From NCBI RefSeq assembly GCF_002868735.1, contig NZ_CP025611.1:1234501-1298500 (forward strand): a DNA stretch of 64,000 bases, in the 5' to 3' direction. Each line of letters opens with the position of its first letter. The first letter of the stretch is position 1. Source of the stretch: Niveispirillum cyanobacteriorum (GTDB lineage Bacteria; Pseudomonadota; Alphaproteobacteria; Azospirillales; Azospirillaceae). The notes beneath the pieces were generated by a model, which saw only the letters and a program-made list of their open reading frames with translations, searched no databases and was not told the origin of the DNA. A program made the translations under genes and the position numbers. Of this stretch, positions 1 through 8,317 are shown piece by piece.

Positions 1-1878
1 TCCACCCTCTTCAAGGGAACCACTTGTCAGCACAGCGAGAGGGTCGTTCTCACGAAGTAAATCAAGATCATTAAGAACAAAATCGATATACTTTGCGTCT
101 AAATCCGGAGAAAACCGTAGCAACTTCTGCCGAAGTGCGTCACGCGGCTGCAACAAAATACCTCTCTTATAGTCCTCTTCCATGAGTTTCATAAACTCAT
201 CATCTTCAACTTTAGCATACTTTATATAATTACTCCGACGCTTAGCCATATTCATTACCTGGTGTCGTAAATGAAGATCAAAATTACAAGGATCCGGAAA
301 AAGCGTAATGAGTCCCTGCTCAATGAACGGCATGATCATCATGAACAGAAATACAGACTTTAAGAATTCTTGACGATACATATGGGGGTTTTCCGTAGGG
401 CTAAATTCCTTTTTCACCGCCCCTGGATGTATGAATGGATGTTCTATAAGCAATTCATCGAAATAAAAAGGAAGACCAAGTGCGCAGTTTGAAATTGCCT
501 GCGGGTGAAGAACTCCTGTATAAATTGCCCTCGCGACTCCATCGGGTTTTGGCAACATTTCAAGAAAATTTGTTTCGCGCGGCCATAACGCATCATAAAG
601 ACTATAAACATCTTTAATCTTATCATCATTAATCTCTTTACGAATTGTAACCCAGTCACGGACATCATTTATACCGAGAATGTTTGATATACCTGTAAAT
701 AGCATAATGTTGCGCTCTCGAATACTTAGCTCCTTCCAAGTTGGCCGAAGAGCGACAGATTTTAGATTGCAACAGTTACCAAATCTGCGACCCGATCCGC
801 ACCCACAAAGGTCACGGGCACGTGGTGGAGTAGACAAGGGTGCCTTTTTTAAAAAATCGCGTTCATGTTCGGTCCGGCCAAATGAATCCTGAAAATAAAC
901 ATCATTGTTTTGTAGTCTAACAAACATATCTCCGCCCATAAATAAAATTCCATCAGAAGGTGGTACAAATAACATGCGGAGGTCAGACCAAGGCTCAGAA
1001 GACTTTATTTCTGGATACAGCCACTCTTCTTTACCAGCTGCTATGTAGCGCTTTGCTCCAGATTTGATAACACGATTAACTCGAACAACCTCTTCACTTG
1101 TGAGCCTACGTGTGCGAATGAATGAGTCCGTGCGCACAAGAGAGTTTCGATAGTTTCCAGCAAAGGTGCGCTTTTTAAGCGGTTCAGTTGAATGATCTTT
1201 AGCATATTCAAGATTAGTCAAAATTAGGCAAAAGTCTCTATTCAATGGAAATATTGTTTGGGTACCTTTAAGCGCTATCGAAGGATCATTTGGATATCTA
1301 TTTCCCTTCACGCCAGGAGGCAGAGCGTAATTGTAAGTCGTAACTGGATGATCGCTGACGATGAACTTAGTTTCAGCATCCTGAGCCGATATTATCTCAC
1401 GCACCCCTTCCGTCCAGATTGTACAGTGCATCATCCGGATACCTTGCATCTCGAACATTAGTTCGTTTTGCGTAAGACGCGGATATTGTGCGCTTAACCA
1501 GTCAAGACCTTTTGGCGTGCGCAACTTCTGGATATCCAGATATTCAAAGAATGATGTAAAATGCTGCTGCCATTCCTTGGAGTCGTCGCTCACAAAGGCC
1601 CGCACTGCCGCGGCCCCACGACAGTCGAGATCACCAAAAAGTTTTCGCTCAATTTCATCGTTGGCAATCTCACCAAAAAAAGTAGAATAAAGATCAATCT
1701 GGCAGAATGCACGTGATGATGGCGAATTAAATTTTGATTTTTCGAATACAATATCACCATTATGAAGTGTTATTTTATTTGGATTGGTATCAAGATATGA
1801 GTATGTTCTTTTGCCAATCTCAAAAAAACCTTCTTGATACCAACGTGGTACGTAGTGATTATTGCGAGTTAATGTCAT
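1..1878 (-). CDS. DUF4238 protein with internal SEC-C zinc motif (C-terminus cut by window edge)
   Basis: Reading the minus strand from the ATG at 1876-1878 gives 626 codons without a stop, still open at base 1. The N-terminus has the DUF4238 signature (NNHYVPRWYQEGF, residues 6-18). Residues 358-370 form a SEC-C type zinc knuckle, CGCGSGRRFGNCC, with C358, C360, C369 and C370. The remaining 250 or more residues are unassigned. DUF4238 proteins have no established activity; SEC-C motifs bind zinc and occur in SecA and in many accessory proteins. Codon use is AT-rich, unlike the neighbouring genes, which suggests horizontal acquisition. The ribosome site is weak (a CGGGG about 13 bases upstream). 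The reading frame is certain and the family call fairly sure; the function is unknown. Confidence 0.8.
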   Translation of the reverse strand, partial: MTLTRNNHYVPRWYQEGFFEIGKRTYSYLDTNPNKITLHNGDIVFEKSKFNSPSSRAFCQIDLYSTFFGEIANDEIERKLFGDLDCRGAAAVRAFVSDDSKEWQQHFTSFFEYLDIQKLRTPKGLDWLSAQYPRLTQNELMFEMQGIRMMHCTIWTEGVREIISAQDAETKFIVSDHPVTTYNYALPPGVKGNRYPNDPSIALKGTQTIFPLNRDFCLILTNLEYAKDHSTEPLKKRTFAGNYRNSLVRTDSFIRTRRLTSEEVVRVNRVIKSGAKRYIAAGKEEWLYPEIKSSEPWSDLRMLFVPPSDGILFMGGDMFVRLQNNDVYFQDSFGRTEHERDFLKKAPLSTPPRARDLCGCGSGRRFGNCCNLKSVALRPTWKELSIRERNIMLFTGISNILGINDVRDWVTIRKEINDDKIKDVYSLYDALWPRETNFLEMLPKPDGVARAIYTGVLHPQAISNCALGLPFYFDELLIEHPFIHPGAVKKEFSPTENPHMYRQEFLKSVFLFMMIMPFIEQGLITLFPDPCNFDLHLRHQVMNMAKRRSNYIKYAKVEDDEFMKLMEEDYKRGILLQPRDALRQKLLRFSPDLDAKYIDFVLNDLDLLRENDPLAVLTSGSLEEGG

Positions 1879-2185
1879 TTATTTAAATACCCCGTACTCC
1901 AATGGAAGTGGTAATAGTAACCTACAATCTGTCGGACGGCAATCCGAACAAGCTTTTAGCCGGGTGTCTTTCACGGCCGACAACTCATCGGCGTATCTGC
2001 TAATTGGCCTTAATGAGCGCGCGAAAAAGACCACAATAGAGCGTAGATAGCGCGCCCATCTGAATTTGCATCAACACCACTTTAAATCTAATTGCAATCG
2101 TTTGCAAAACCCCAAAACCCAGCGTATGATCCCCTCAACATCGGGCGAAACCGCCCCTATAAGTCGATCCGGGGAGGATACGGGC
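1879..2185. promoter_or_regulatory. Divergent intergenic region between the DUF4238 gene and the symporter
   Basis: About 300 bases without a convincing gene. The left part is AT-rich and should hold the promoter of the leftward DUF4238 gene. The right part carries the LacI-type operator (2092-2107) and the ribosome site GGGGAGGA (2171-2178) of the symporter. Short frames here look random. Confidence 0.6.
2092..2107 (+). promoter_or_regulatory. LacI-family operator
   Basis: TTGCAATCGTTTGCAA is a near-perfect 16-base palindrome with a central CG: arms TTGCAA/TTGCAA, only the bases flanking CG break symmetry. This is the classic form of LacI/GalR-family operators. It lies about 80 bases before the symporter start and the adjacent gene encodes a LacI-family protein, so local repression relieved by a sugar is the natural inference. 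Confidence 0.8.
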
Positions 2186-3778
2186 ATGAGTGACGGGTTT
2201 GGGCAGCTCTCGGGGCTGGATGCGGCCATTATCGGGCTGTATCTGGTGGCCATTGTGGTGCTGGGGCTGTATGCCTCGCGGCAATCGACGACGGCGACCG
2301 ATTATTTCCTGGCGGCGCGCAGTTCGACCTGGCCCACCATCGGGCTGGCGCTGCTGGCGTCCAACATTTCCTCCACCACCCTGATCGGGTTGGCGGGGGC
2401 GGCCTATGCGACCGGTATTGCCGTCTATAATTATGAATGGATGGCCAGTGTCGTGCTGGTCTTCTTCTGCCTGTTCCTGCTGCCCGTCATCCTGCGCAGT
2501 CAGGTTTATACGATGCCGGAATTCCTGGAAAAGCGGTTCGACGGCTCCATCCGGCTGTATTTTTCCGGCCTGACCATCTTCCTGAACATCGTGGTGGATA
2601 CGGCCGGCACGCTGTTTGGCGGGGCCTTGATGTTCAAGCTGATCTTCCCCGGCGTGCCGCTGTGGCAGATCGCGGGCCTGCTGGCGCTGGCCGCCGGTGC
2701 CTATACGGCGGCGGGCGGGTTGAAGGCGGTGCTGGTCACCGAAGTGGTGCAGGCCGTGATCCTGTGCGGCGCGTCGGTCTTCGTAGCCGTCTTCGCCTTT
2801 GACAAGGCCGGCGGCTGGGATGCCGTGATGGCCGGGGTGGAGGCCCAGAAGATGAGCCTGATCCGCCCCGCCGATGACCCGTCCCTGCCCTGGACCGGGC
2901 TGATCACGGGCGTGCCCCTGATCGGGCTGTATTTCTGGTGCACCAACCAGTTCATGGTGCAGCGGGTTCTGTCGGCCAAGGACCTGAACCATGGCCGCTG
3001 GGGCAGCCTGTTTGCCGGGCTGTTGAAGCTGCCGGTGCTGTTCCTCATGGTGCTGCCCGGCTCGGCGGCCATCCTGATGTATCCCAATCTGGAACGCCCG
3101 GACCTTGTTTACCCCACCTTGATCTTCGACCTGTTGCCCGTGGGCGTCATCGGCATCGTGGTGGCGGGGTTCCTGGCGGCCATTATGTCGTCGATTGCCA
3201 GCACGTTTAATTCCGCCTCCACGCTCGTCACCATGGATTTCGTACGCCGCTTCCGGCCCGATGTGTCACAGGCCGCGCTGGTCCGCATCGGTCGCATCAC
3301 CACGCTGTGCTTCATGGTGCTGTCGGTCGCCTGGGTGCCCGTGGTGGAAAGCCTGACCGATACGCTGTGGCAGTATCTGCAGGCCGTTCTGGCCTATGCC
3401 GTGCCGCCCGTGGTGGCCCTGTTCCTGGCCGGCATCTTCTGGCGCCGCGCCAATGTGGCCGGCGCGCGGGCCGGCGTTCTGATGGGGCTGCTGGCCGGTG
3501 GTTACCTTTTCTATGGGGTGCAGGTGACAGGCTCAATCCACCTGCATTTCCTGCTGGCCGCCACCCTGCTGTTCGCGCTGTCGCTGGCCGCCGTCATCAT
3601 CGCCAGCCTGTTGACCGCCCCGCCGGCGGCGGACAAGACCGAAACCCTGATGTGGACCCGCGCCGATTTCGACGCCGAAACCCGGTCCCTGGCGGGCCAA
3701 CCCCTGTGGCAGAACTACCGCGTACAGGCCGTGGCCCTGCTTGCCCTGACGGCGGTGATTGTCTGGGTGTTCCGGTAA
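2186..3778 (+). CDS. Sodium:solute symporter (SSS family, sugar-type)
   Basis: A 530-residue inner-membrane protein with about 13-14 hydrophobic segments, matching the sodium:solute symporter family and closest in style to SGLT-like sugar carriers. It would import a solute with sodium. I chose the ATG at 2186, preceded by GGGGAGGA, rather than an in-frame TTG at 2066, because the longer start would place the LacI operator inside the coding region. The convergent neighbour is a LacI regulator, which points to a sugar or sugar derivative as substrate. A 13-base-pair hairpin follows the stop. Confidence 0.88.
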   Translation: MSDGFGQLSGLDAAIIGLYLVAIVVLGLYASRQSTTATDYFLAARSSTWPTIGLALLASNISSTTLIGLAGAAYATGIAVYNYEWMASVVLVFFCLFLLPVILRSQVYTMPEFLEKRFDGSIRLYFSGLTIFLNIVVDTAGTLFGGALMFKLIFPGVPLWQIAGLLALAAGAYTAAGGLKAVLVTEVVQAVILCGASVFVAVFAFDKAGGWDAVMAGVEAQKMSLIRPADDPSLPWTGLITGVPLIGLYFWCTNQFMVQRVLSAKDLNHGRWGSLFAGLLKLPVLFLMVLPGSAAILMYPNLERPDLVYPTLIFDLLPVGVIGIVVAGFLAAIMSSIASTFNSASTLVTMDFVRRFRPDVSQAALVRIGRITTLCFMVLSVAWVPVVESLTDTLWQYLQAVLAYAVPPVVALFLAGIFWRRANVAGARAGVLMGLLAGGYLFYGVQVTGSIHLHFLLAATLLFALSLAAVIIASLLTAPPAADKTETLMWTRADFDAETRSLAGQPLWQNYRVQAVALLALTAVIVWVFR

Positions 3779-3781
3779 ACA

Positions 3782-3811
3782 GTGGGGCTTCCGGCAAACC
3801 GGAAGCCCCAC
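3782..3811. terminator. Hairpin between symporter and lacI-type gene
   Basis: Perfect 13-base-pair stem GTGGGGCTTCCGG / CCGGAAGCCCCAC with loop CAAA, directly after the symporter stop and before the convergent regulator stop. It has no strong U-tract, so it may act as a weak or bidirectional terminator. Confidence 0.6.
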
Positions 3812-3854
3812 CGGCGGCGACCGCCGCCGCGCCGGCGTGTGAGGAACGTAGAAC

Positions 3855-4865
3855 CTAACTCCCGCACGATTTGCGGATGACCAGTTCCGCCGGCATGGTG
3901 GCGGAGGGCGTGTTCTCCCCCTCCATCCGGCGGAACAGCAGGTCGATCATCACCTTGGCCCCGCGCGCCAGGTCCTGGCGCACACTGGTCAGCGGCGGGT
4001 TCACATAGGCGGCGATGGTGATATCGTCGAACCCGACCACCGCCACATCGTCCGGCACGCGCAACCCGGCGGCGTTCAGCGCCTTGATAGCGGCAATGGC
4101 AATCACGTCCGACACGGCAAAAATGGCATCGAACGGCACCTTGCTGTCGATCAACCCGCGCACCGTGTCATAGGCGGTATCGACCGTGAAATGCGCGGGC
4201 GCCAGCAGGGCCGGGTCCTCCGCAATGCCGGCGGCGGCCAGGGCGCGGCGATAGCCGTCATAGCGCAACCCCACCTCCGGCAGGGACGGCACGCCCAGAA
4301 AGGCGATCCGCCGCCTTCCCTTCTGCACCAGATGCTCCACGGCCAGCCGCGCCCCGCCAATATTGTCCGACCCAACCGAACAATAAATCTGGCTGGGCAG
4401 ATGGGCACCCCAGACCACCAGCGGCAGATAGGTGCGGGCCACCGCATTCAACGCCTCATGCTGATCGCTCTGACCGATGACGATCAACCCGTCGGCCTTC
4501 TGCGACTGGATCAACCGGTCCTGCCAGCCCGGTTCCGGCCGCGCCACCTTGGTCAGCAGCACATTGTAATCGCGTGCCGTGATCTCATCGGCCAGCCGAC
4601 CCAGCAGCTCGATGAAGAACGGGTCGGAGATCAGCTGACCCACCTCATGGCCCAGCGGGATGACGATGCCGATGGTGCGGGTCTTCTTCAGGCGCAGGTT
4701 GCGGGCCTGTTCATTGATGACATAGCCCTGCGCCTGCGCCAGCGCCAGGATCTCCTCACGCTTGGCCTGCGGCACCAGGGCGCTTCCGGCCAGCGCGCGG
4801 GAAACCGTGGAAACCGACACACCCGCCATCCGGGCAATGTCCGCCATCTTGATCGGTGCCGCCAT
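3855..4865 (-). CDS. LacI-family transcriptional regulator
   Basis: A 336-residue regulator. Residues 7-28 (MADIARMAGVSVSTVSRALAG region) are the LacI-type helix-turn-helix with the hinge following; the rest is a periplasmic-binding-protein fold that senses a small molecule. Start taken at the ATG at 4863-4865; an upstream in-frame TTG would add 7 residues. It faces the symporter gene convergently and very likely controls it through the operator at 2092-2107. The effector is unknown, probably a sugar. Confidence 0.92.
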   Translation of the reverse strand: MAAPIKMADIARMAGVSVSTVSRALAGSALVPQAKREEILALAQAQGYVINEQARNLRLKKTRTIGIVIPLGHEVGQLISDPFFIELLGRLADEITARDYNVLLTKVARPEPGWQDRLIQSQKADGLIVIGQSDQHEALNAVARTYLPLVVWGAHLPSQIYCSVGSDNIGGARLAVEHLVQKGRRRIAFLGVPSLPEVGLRYDGYRRALAAAGIAEDPALLAPAHFTVDTAYDTVRGLIDSKVPFDAIFAVSDVIAIAAIKALNAAGLRVPDDVAVVGFDDITIAAYVNPPLTSVRQDLARGAKVMIDLLFRRMEGENTPSATMPAELVIRKSCGS

Positions 4866-4946
4866 CCCCACTGCCCTGCGCTTCAACCCAACCGGCGGCC
4901 AAGCTAGCAGAGGTGGGGACGAAGCGCCAATCCCCGCTGACAGGGC

Positions 4947-5647
4947 TCAATCGTCCGAACGGCTGCCCGCCGCCGCCGCCGCGGCCTCTAGTGTTTCATC
5001 CGCCGGGTCGGTGGTAAGGGCGGTGCGGATATAGATGCCGTAGAGGCTGTTCCCGGTACCAGTACAGCCAAAGGTGTCTTTGGCCAGGATGAACCCCGCC
5101 AACCAGCGCAAGGTGATGGTACATCCAGCAGACTTATAGACGACCTTGTTGCCCTTCGGAGCGGTCTCTACGTCAAAATCAGACAAATAGTAGGGGGGTG
5201 TGAAGGCTACACCTTTAATGTACAGCTTCCCCCCTCCTTCGCGTCTACCAGGAACCAGTTCTCTCCCGTGCGCCACCGACCCAACCAATCTTCCCGGGTC
5301 GGTGGCGCTGACGTCGCATCAATATTGAGTCTAGCGCGCGGCAACCACCCTGCCGTATCACGCTTCTTGCCGCGAAACATCGCACAGACATAGGGCCCCT
5401 TTTCATCCGCCAGAAACACACGGTCACCGGGCACCAGATAGGCCTTGGCCTGACAATCTGCCCCACCGGGACAATGTTCCGCCGAGCGCTGAAAGTATAG
5501 ACGCGGACCCGATTCATTCTTGAGAATGGCTGAATGCAGATTTTCGGCGTCGTATATATTGAGGTCGCTGCAATCCTGGGCAATTGTATCAGCCGTCACA
5601 AAGAGGTGGCTCAAAACGAGCAATGCCCACTTGAAACGATGTCTCAT
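4947..5647 (-). pseudogene. Secreted SH3-like protein, frameshifted at a G6 run
   Basis: Two overlapping minus-strand frames form one protein. The first (5647 down to 5207) starts MRHRFKWALLVLSHLF, a signal peptide, and includes an SH3-like stretch (LVPGDRVFLADEKGPYVC). It then leaves frame at a run of six C on the plus strand (5229-5234) and stops soon after. The second frame continues the same protein from KLYIKGVAF to 4947. One extra G, or two fewer, restores an open frame of about 230 residues. It could be a real inactivation, a phase-variable homopolymer, or a sequencing error. The function is unknown; it is probably periplasmic. Composition is AT-richer than the core genes. Confidence 0.65.
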
Positions 5648-5683
5648 AGCGTAAAAATTCCAATTCTCGATGAATTGTATAAA

Positions 5684-6625
5684 TCACTTTATTCTATCTA
5701 CGGGAAGGTACGCCTCTCCAGTCTCATCGGCATGCCGCCAAACAATATCTAGTATGTTTGTAATTTTTTGGCCAGGTATCATGGCGCGCATAAGATGAGC
5801 TCCATCTATGCACACGAATTTCAGAGCACCTTTTGCGCTCAAACTCTTTACTGCCTCAGGCGAATAACCATTGACTGAAACATACAAACCTCTAGTATCA
5901 GCCGTTTTCCCTTCAATTTTGTATAAAAATGCCCCAAAATCTGCACCAGCAACGGGCGTTTTAACCCACTTTGCCTCAAGAAAATTTGTCCGATTACGCC
6001 ACTGGAATGAACCATCTATCTGTTCACCAGTAATTTTGAACGAACCTCTCGGCGCCAGCTGCTCATAATCAAAAAATTCATTCAAAAATGACTCAAATAA
6101 ATACCCTCTAGTTTGTGCATTGGCTTCAGCCATCAAAGATATAAATCTATCCCCAAAATTTACCCGTACCTGTTCATCAGAAACGTATGCCGCCTCTTTA
6201 GCTTTTCTTTCTAATTCTCCCCTCTCAATCTCCGCAAGTCTTGTCTCTTCACGAATGCGCTGAGCCTCCTGCCGGTCAGTTGCAACCTGTTGACGTAAAC
6301 GTTCAATCGCTGCCAGCGACTCCGGATTAGCGTCGGGGAAGGAAACACGATTAAGCCCTGTTATAACGCCCGCAAACATCCGATCGCCACTGTCACCCAG
6401 TTCGGATACTATTATTATTAACTCCTTTACAACAACACGCTTTGGAGCCCGTGCAAAGCCACTATCTTTATTCTGATATTTTATGTCAGCCGCTGCACGC
6501 GCTTTAGCAATAATTTCATTCGGCACGCCCGATCTGCTTAAAAAGCTATCGAGTTGATTGTGATATTTATAACATCCCGACAAGGCTTCTTCTAGGTTAG
6601 TAAGAGTGGAAACGTCAAAAGGCAT
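5684..6625 (-). CDS. PD-(D/E)xK (Mrr-like) nuclease-domain protein
   Basis: A 313-residue protein. Residues about 1-110 are helical and unassigned; 110-150 are a charged coiled coil (Arg/Glu-rich). Residues 172-300 look like a restriction-endonuclease fold: RGYLFESFLNEFF (helix with E178), GEQIDGSF (D204) and LEAKW (E217, K219), i.e. D...ExK. Such domains cut DNA in Mrr-type and other defence proteins. Start taken at the ATG at 6625; an in-frame TTG 72 bases upstream overlaps the terminator of guaA and is less likely. The gene is AT-rich relative to guaA and has no obvious methylase partner, so a modification-dependent or stand-alone nuclease is possible. The nuclease call is fairly sure; the biological role is inference. 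Confidence 0.7.
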   Translation of the reverse strand: MPFDVSTLTNLEEALSGCYKYHNQLDSFLSRSGVPNEIIAKARAAADIKYQNKDSGFARAPKRVVVKELIIIVSELGDSGDRMFAGVITGLNRVSFPDANPESLAAIERLRQQVATDRQEAQRIREETRLAEIERGELERKAKEAAYVSDEQVRVNFGDRFISLMAEANAQTRGYLFESFLNEFFDYEQLAPRGSFKITGEQIDGSFQWRNRTNFLEAKWVKTPVAGADFGAFLYKIEGKTADTRGLYVSVNGYSPEAVKSLSAKGALKFVCIDGAHLMRAMIPGQKITNILDIVWRHADETGEAYLPVDRIK

Positions 6626-6689
6626 TTCGCTACCATTTTGTGCAAGTGGGTGTCGTCTTATGCTTTTTATAATGGTGCGGACCACACTT

Positions 6690-6725
6690 AACAACAAGGA
6701 GAGAATCGCAACCCTCCTTGTTGTT
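6690..6725 (-). terminator. guaA terminator
   Basis: Twelve-base-pair perfect stem AACAACAAGGAG (6690-6701) / CTCCTTGTTGTT (6714-6725), 12 bases after the guaA stop. The descending arm on the minus strand is T-rich (TTGTTGTT), consistent with Rho-independent termination. Confidence 0.75.
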
Positions 6726-6736
6726 GAACAAAAAGA

Positions 6737-8317
6737 TCACTCCCACTCAATCGTGCCCGGCGGCTTCGACGTGATGTCGTAGGTCACGCGGTTGATGCCG
6801 CGCACCTCGTTGATGATGCGGGTGGCGACATGGCCCAGGAAGCTGTGTTCGAACGGATAATAATCCGCCGTCATGCCATCGACCGAGGTCACGGCGCGCA
6901 GCGCGCAGGCATAATCATAGGTGCGGCCATCGCCCATCACGCCGACGGTGCGCACGGGCAGCAGCACGGCAAAGGCCTGCCAGATTTCATCATAAAGGCC
7001 TGCCTTGCGGATGGCGTCCAGATAGACGCTGTCGGCCTTGCGCAGAATGTCCAGCTTCTCGCGCGTGATCTCGCCCGGCACGCGGATGGCCAGACCGGGG
7101 CCGGGGAACGGGTGGCGACCGACAAAGCTGTGCGGCAGGCCCAGTTCACGGCCCAGTGCGCGCACCTCATCCTTGAACAGCTCGCGCAGCGGCTCCACCA
7201 GCTTCAGCTTCATGCGGTCGGGCAGGCCGCCGACATTGTGGTGCGACTTGATGGTGACGCTGGGGCCGCCGGTAAACGACACGCTCTCGATGACATCGGG
7301 ATACAGCGTGCCCTGGGCCAGGAATTCCGCGCCGCCGATCTTGGCGGCCTCGCCATCGAACACTTCGATGAACAGGCGACCGATAATCTTGCGCTTCTGC
7401 TCCGGGTCGGACACGCCCTCCAACTGCCCCAGGAACAGGTCGGCGGCGTCCACATGCACCAGCGGGATATTATAATGGTCGCGGAACAGGGTCACCACCT
7501 GTTCGGCCTCGCCCGACCGCATCAGGCCGGTATCCACGAAGATACAGGTCAGCTGGGCCCCGATCGCCTCGTGGATCAGAACAGCGGCGACGGAGCTGTC
7601 GACACCGCCCGAAAGGCCGCAGATCACCTTGGCGGAACCCACCTGCTCGCGAATTCGGGCCACGGCTTCGGCACGGAAGGCGGCCATGGTCCAATCGCCC
7701 TTCAGACCCGCCACCTTGAACAGGAAATTGCGGATCAGGGCGTCGCCATGCGGGGTATGCACCACTTCGGGGTGGAACTGTACCGCATAGAAGCGGCGGG
7801 TATCGTCGGCGATGATGGCATAGGGCGCGCCCTCGGACGTGGCGACGATGCGGAATCCTTCGGGCAGCTTGGTGACACGGTCGCCATGGCTCATCCACAC
7901 CTGCTCATGCGCGCCGATGCTCCACACGCCTTCGAACAGGGCGCAATCATCCTTGACGTCAACAAAGGCGCGGCCGAACTCGCGGGTCTCGCCCGGCTCC
8001 ACCTTGCCGCCCAGCTGCTCGCACATGGTCTGCTGGCCATAGCAGATGCCGAACACCGGCACGCCCAGGGTCCAGACCACGTCATTGGCGCGCGGGCTGC
8101 CCGCCTCCGTCACGCTGGCCGGGCCGCCCGACAGGATGATGGCCTTAGGCGCAAAGGCGCGAATGCGGCCCTCGTCCGCGCTATAGGGGATGATTTCGCA
8201 ATAAATGCCGGCCTCGCGCACACGGCGGGCGATCAGCTGCGTCACCTGCGATCCGAAATCCAGGATCAGGACACGGTCGGGATGGGCGGCGGGTGCGGTG
8301 GAAGAGGCGGCGGCCAT
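6737..8317 (-). CDS. guaA: GMP synthase (glutamine-hydrolysing)
   Basis: A 526-residue enzyme that converts XMP, ATP and glutamine to GMP in de novo purine synthesis. The N-terminal class-I amidotransferase has the GICYGQQ elbow with nucleophile C92 and the FHPEV motif. The ATP-pyrophosphatase domain has the PP-loop GLSGGVDSS, and the C-terminal dimer domain ends GTIEWE. Length and order are typical. The start ATG at 8315-8317 is preceded by AGGAAAA. The leader contains a hairpin immediately in front of the start codon. Transcription ends at the hairpin at 6690-6725. Confidence 0.98.

Follow-up and report, generated by a model that had tools for sequence, protein, structure and literature searches.

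A putative anti-phage nuclease of a scattered Mrr-like family behind guaA in Niveispirillum cyanobacteriorum

A probably acquired gene at a variable site

Directly behind the guaA gene of Niveispirillum cyanobacteriorum lies a gene for a putative nuclease, and the question raised by this locus is whether the protein serves in the defence against phages and, if so, how it would be controlled. An earlier note, made from the sequence, had described it as a stand-alone PD-(D/E)xK nuclease with an unassigned helical N-terminus and had suggested an anti-phage or modification-dependent role. The window analysed here is the whole 64,000-nucleotide stretch (contig NZ_CP025611.1, positions 1,234,501 to 1,298,500), and positions refer to it unless another locus is named. 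The gene occupies positions 5684 to 6625 of the minus strand (ATG at 6625, stop at 5684) and encodes 313 amino acids in an intact frame, which upstream of the ATG remains open as far as a TTG at 6697. It is AT-rich, as had been remarked, with a GC content of 43.9% against 62.3% for the whole window, and a GC3 of 0.36 against 0.83 for guaA. Positions 1 to 2000, beside a transporter-like ORF at 2066, are likewise low in GC (42.1%) and contain no long ORF.

The neighbours of the nuclease gene are guaA (6737 to 8317, minus strand, GMP synthase by Pfam), a LacI-type regulator and a frameshifted gene. When five ORFs (the nuclease and four neighbours) were scanned in Pfam, only the GMP synthase and the LacI-type regulator were named; no integrase was found among them and no methylase, in agreement with the earlier note. 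The frameshift proposed for the adjoining gene was also confirmed: its 5′ part (5207 to 5647, minus strand) and its 3′ part (4947 to 5288, minus strand, in another frame) each match one half of a 261-aa ORF that is intact in a sister genome. The intact homologue of the broken gene (4947 to 5647) in sister locus L111 (3856 to 4641) is followed by an apparent partial tandem copy (4684 to 4974); no family match was obtained.

All 11 genomes of the genus contain guaA, whose 3′ flank behaves as a variable site. None of the ten sister guaA loci compared by blastn matched the nuclease-bearing stretch (about 5522 to 6734): similarity to the sisters ends exactly at the guaA stop codon and other DNA is found there in 10 of 10, with a GH108 gene in L111 and a phage-type integrase near guaA in two sisters (L115, and L110, where it is partial, 272 aa). 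The 3′ end of guaA holds GAGTGGGA (6741 to 6748 in the window), which all 8 sister loci that were scanned share, and which is the reported integration target of the guaA-targeting island GIsul2 (PMC9376610). No repeats were found around the nuclease gene, so that direct evidence of an insertion junction is lacking, and no second GAGTGGGA was found near it; the nuclease gene probably arrived at guaA by horizontal acquisition, a route that we infer.

Two further features of this flank were observed. Right behind the guaA stop codon of the window (6685 to 6730) there is an inverted repeat, AACAACAAGGAG ... CTCCTTGTTGTT, which is not followed by a T-run on the coding strand and was not seen in the sister loci inspected for it. 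In addition, the sister locus L110 carries a small guaA island (351 to 4650) with the partial integrase, a nucleotidyltransferase-like gene (by our own reading), and an ATPase that matches PADLOC PDC-S06 (E 5e-73). The far end of the island also has a second GAGTGGGA (position 351), past both the integrase and the ATPase gene. This island looks like a compact defence island.

A conserved nuclease core and a helical N-terminal domain

Taken alone, the nuclease protein gave no meaningful match in Pfam, PADLOC, NCBIfam or PHROGs, nor a meaningful sequence match among PDB chains. The window protein was then aligned with 33 relatives taken from 80 loci (34 members, alignment A3). R173, G174, E178, D204, E217 and W220 are invariant over the 34 aligned members and K219 is conserved in at least 90% of them, so that E178, D204 and the ExK pair, which the earlier note had picked out as a restriction-endonuclease motif at these very places, represent a conserved active site and not a chance occurrence. 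The profile search that had been proposed as a check gave Mrr_cat (PF04471) in 32 of the 34 members, each scanned singly (best E 1e-12), with the window protein outside these 32 and below the reach of that model. The PADLOC type IV model mREase_IV is weakly similar to 9 of the 34 (best E 1.3e-5).

The AlphaFold2 model of the full-length protein, built from a 45-row alignment, has a mean pLDDT of 92.1 and a pTM of 0.71. Its core comprises a helix (residues 170-187, with E178), three strands (193-199; 202-209, with D204; and 212-219, with E217 and K219), a second helix (228-238) and a further strand (245-250), i.e., the alpha-beta-beta-beta-alpha-beta order of the standard nuclease core. When this model was compared by VIA-align with Foldseek's best PDB chains, the highest scores were obtained with Nt.BspD6I (Z 11.0, 156 residues, 3.5 Å) and FokI (Z 10.1), followed by AF1548 (9.7), Shedu (7.7), MspJI (7.6), the nuclease domain of Avs4 (7.5) and NucC (7.2); since unrelated rows (acetyl-CoA carboxylase and RPB5) reach Z 7-8, weight is placed on the top rows only. 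EndoMS-type repair nucleases were also among the structural matches. Foldseek alone found nothing below E 0.001 in the PDB with the full-length model, its top match being MspJI (1.3e-3). On this model, and in line with conservation and profile, the C-terminal domain (about residues 170-312, positions 5690 to 6118, minus strand) is an ordinary restriction-endonuclease fold with a conserved nuclease core. DNA cleavage by the window protein is a putative activity, attributed to it from its family.

Ahead of this core the model places a single long helix (residues 101-165, positions 6131 to 6325, minus strand), a predicted coiled coil as the earlier note had expected, whose beginning coincides in part with helix six in the model of the N-terminal domain (residues 1-115, positions 6281 to 6625, minus strand). 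The claim that the first 110 residues match no known domain stood as regards profiles, because no credible domain match was obtained in Pfam, PADLOC, NCBIfam or PHROGs, and residues 1-115 matched nothing in Pfam at E up to 10; but this N-terminus is not peculiar to the window protein, as it belongs to a family common to other such nucleases. No Mrr_N, SRA or other methyl-reading domain was found in the Pfam searches of the nuclease.

The structure prediction that had been called for was carried out on the N-terminal domain alone (six sequences) and gave an all-helical model of six helices, without a winged beta hairpin (pLDDT 86.6, pTM 0.80). In the VIA comparison, death domains or CARDs accounted for 12 of the first 15 rows (Z 5.1-7.0), the other three being dGTPase (two) and a designed protein. 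The best row was RIPK1 (Z 7.0, 90 residues, 3.4 Å), and two bacterial proteins of Azospirillum, a death-like domain (8ss1; 92 residues, 3.6 Å) and a CARD (9cs7; 96 residues, 3.9 Å), both reached Z 6.3; the remaining death-fold rows were TNFR1, RAIDD, Apaf-1 (three rows), Fas/FADD (two rows), p84 and RIG-I/MAVS. By the tool's own caution, a Z below about 13 may reflect a common arrangement of helical bundles, and all of these values are at or below 7.0. With the same model, Foldseek gave RAIDD at best (E 1.6), and a BFVD search gave nothing significant, its third row being annotated as a viral MAVS protein. A sequence profile of the N-terminus found no death-domain chain in the PDB at E up to 10. 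From the predicted structure, the N-terminus may thus be called death-fold-like, a reading that we regard as evenly balanced or slightly favoured. A relation to EAD1 was considered as well and found no support (profile comparison probability 3.6%, with EAD1 represented by two sequences only).

The N-terminal domain appears to travel with the nuclease. Its profile matched 8 of 398 genomes of the phylum, its own included, and in all 8 the protein or the locus also has the catalytic domain of the nuclease; in its own genome the profile of the module (A10) found only the nuclease gene at E up to 10, without a second copy. One window-type relative (L124, 986 to 1926) is split across two reading frames. 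Among 99 homologues, the window protein included, N-terminal modules of type A (45), type B (37), the window type (9) and type C (6) were distinguished, and two were of other types. Profile comparison makes the window N-terminus a homologue of the type C module (probability 97.8%, E 8e-13) and detected no relation to types A or B. As judged from sequence comparison, the same catalytic domain carries at least three unrelated N-terminal modules. On a 47-row tree of the catalytic domain, seven changes of module are needed (minimum four); when the long-branch rows L003, L010, L011 and L123 were removed and the window type was merged with type C, the changes needed equalled the minimum of three. 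Repeated swapping of modules was therefore dropped as a conclusion, and the reduced tree speaks only for the existence of at least three modules. The window protein sits on a long branch, which makes its position in the tree uncertain.

Relatives and their defence-gene neighbours

Relatives of the nuclease are widespread and thinly scattered. By tblastn, 1397 of 72,556 plasmid records were matched, all below 60% identity and many annotated 'restriction endonuclease', and 0 of 50,697 phage GenBank records at E up to 0.1. Scans of genome contigs and viral contigs with the single sequence gave no relative; when an alignment of seven members (A2) was used as the query instead, 235 relatives were found in contigs of species genomes, of which 80 loci were kept, and eight in viral contigs. 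Their hosts include Pseudomonadota, Bacillota, Chloroflexota, Verrucomicrobiota, Ignavibacteriota and one archaeon (Methanosarcinales). The gene was matched in 4 of 82 genomes of the Azospirillaceae, the family of the window, at E 1e-3, and in 6 of 385 genomes at the class level at E 1e-5, its own included in both counts. It is thus an accessory gene, rare and patchily distributed, and not one fixed at a core-genome position. In one viral contig (L133, 5977 to 7152) the nuclease domain is N-terminal and is followed by an additional C-terminal part, which may resemble Shedu-type proteins.

With 16 representative defence proteins as queries, neighbours were matched in 19 of 44 dereplicated loci (53 of 103 loci overall), with no neighbour match in the other 25; because the representatives had been picked from the same neighbourhoods, this figure measures recurrence and does not amount to an independent enrichment. 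The 44 loci are the 46 dereplicated rows minus the window and L089, which has unread bases; L096 and a weak second match in L058 were left out before counting, and L015 was dropped at dereplication. Several of the loci are short (3.4-4 kb), and some of the neighbour matches lie several genes away. Two positive controls were matched and 0 of 15 control stretches, namely ten guaA loci (5.0-12.5 kb) and five window slices (12.8 kb), all from one genus. In the 44 loci, HamA was found in 7, HamB and AbiEii in 6 each, QatA, QatC, GajA and GajB in 3 each, RmrA in 2, and PDC-S01 and a TIR gene in 1 each. Within the 19, L032 is counted by its TIR gene only, L082 by a GajA-like match alone, and L027 by a UvrD-like, probably housekeeping gene. 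GajA and GajB occur together in 14 of the 103 loci, and L027, L069 and L129 have a GajB-like match only. Beside relatives, PADLOC identified GajA (E 2e-232 and 2e-209), GajB, HamA, HamB and RmrA; for a set of 86 immediate neighbours (E ≤ 1e-15), the 25 of 114 families listed include QatA and AbiEii.

The arrangement of these loci is often tight. In L060 (1887 to 6453) the gene order is GajA-GajB-nuclease, and L042 has the same order with one extra gene between, so that the nuclease may be the third gene in some Gabija loci such as L060. The nuclease is separated from HamA by 12-19 bases in several loci, and in L076 (5638 to 10803), as well as in L080, L083 and L090, it immediately precedes HamA-HamB, the genes being almost contiguous or overlapping; it is possibly the third gene of these Hachiman loci too. 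Such an arrangement with Gabija or Hachiman was not found described in the open-licence literature. Members of the window type have HamA/HamB (L003) or a TIR-like gene (L032) as neighbours, and one on a viral contig (L129, 5989 to 8829) lies beside a GajB-like helicase (PADLOC GajB, E 3e-49); further on, L129 has what we read as phage packaging genes. In the sister species G071, a type A relative (L009) lies between AbiEii-like and HamA-like genes.

The window gene has no such neighbour: none of the 16 representatives matched in the five slices covering the window, and a GajA search of its genome (run without a positive control) gave no match. The term stand-alone, applied to it earlier, thus describes the window gene itself but not many of its relatives, which closely adjoin defence systems of several genes. 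The anti-phage role proposed with it gained support from the defence genes near relatives, but not from the window gene, which has neither a defence neighbour nor a PADLOC match of its own, and its defence role is suggested by the neighbours of its relatives.

Explanations for the locus and comparison with known systems

We consider it somewhat probable that the gene encodes an anti-phage effector nuclease of a scattered Mrr-like family, whose control would run through an interaction domain at the N-terminus and the long coiled coil. The C-terminal domain would cut DNA with E178, D204 and the ExK at 217-219, residues to which conservation and model both point; the N-terminal six-helix domain would be an interaction module of the death-fold type, as the model suggests; and the 65-residue helix would dimerise the protein or act as a spacer. 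The N-terminal module may hold or recruit the nuclease until a partner or a phage signal leads to its release or clustering, upon which phage DNA would be degraded or, in an abortive infection, the DNA of the cell itself. For relatives, the neighbouring Gabija, Hachiman, Qat, AbiE or RmrA system is the probable partner. No such partner adjoins the window gene, so that its nuclease would act alone, would act through an unlinked partner, or would be an orphaned effector. A bolder version, which is possible and rather doubtful, would make Mrr-like nucleases interchangeable add-on effectors that join these five systems through N-terminal adaptors, the adaptor of the window type being a bacterial death fold; this would amount to a bacterial DNA endonuclease gated by a death domain, comparable to the way in which death domains gate effectors in animal immunity.

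Classical type IV (Mrr-like) restriction, in which the N-terminus reads modified DNA and the nuclease cuts modified phage DNA without a partner, would agree with the Mrr_cat catalytic domain, with the mREase_IV similarity, and with a solitary gene that has no methylase named in the neighbouring ORFs scanned. However, no reader domain was found, the N-terminus is all-helical and lacks the winged beta hairpin, and relatives have unrelated modules at that place and sit near multi-gene defence systems; we think this explanation unlikely. The modification-dependent activity suggested in the earlier note found no specific support, the weak type IV similarity being the one point in its favour. It is more unlikely still that the gene is orphaned cargo of a guaA-targeting island, kept by chance and now functionless. 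The lack of a second GAGTGGGA nearby and of an integrase in the scanned neighbours, the frameshift in the adjoining gene and the long branch in the catalytic tree would suit such a relic, but the frame is intact, the conserved active-site residues are retained, and the model is confident over the full length. A housekeeping nuclease of DNA repair or recombination, with no link to phages, could be suspected from the EndoMS-type matches; yet none of the 10 sister species has the gene at this site and most of the family lacks it, its composition is foreign, and its relatives occur on plasmids and viral contigs and near defence genes, which makes this role very improbable.

Compared with known systems, the anti-phage effector that we favour combines familiar and less familiar parts. 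Mrr-type nucleases are known, and the catalytic domain is like theirs, with E...D...ExK in the conserved places. The N-terminus of Mrr is a winged-helix DNA-binding domain, whereas that of the window protein is a helical bundle with a coiled coil. In structure comparison the core also resembles those of the PD-(D/E)xK nucleases of the defence proteins Shedu and Avs4, but these gave no sequence match among the PDB chains. The parts fused to the Shedu and Avs4 nucleases differ from those of the window protein. As in the EAD, bDLD and bacterial CARD systems, a six-helix fold may lie at one end of the putative effector, to judge from the model; restriction-endonuclease-fold effectors tied to EAD systems (PMC7159879 and PMC8195603) and bacterial CARD defence systems (PMC13236601) are already on record. 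Unlike EAD and bDLD, the window N-terminus has no sequence match to Pfam families or to death domains in the PDB, and, unlike in the published EAD systems, there is no second copy of the domain in its genome and no STAND or vWA partner was seen. Relatives form extra nuclease genes inside or alongside Gabija, Hachiman, Qat, AbiE and RmrA loci (for instance L060 and L076), but no signature gene of these systems lies next to the window copy. In the open-licence literature we found no description of a death-fold-like N-terminal family joined to an Mrr-like nuclease, nor of such nucleases packed against several named defence systems. Should the N-terminus prove to be a genuine death fold, the small set of bacterial families known to have one would gain a further member, tied to a DNA-cutting effector; the wider pattern is a third nuclease gene packed against the Gabija and Hachiman genes, and the family offers a handle on the many plasmid genes (1397 records matched) that are annotated merely as 'restriction endonuclease'.
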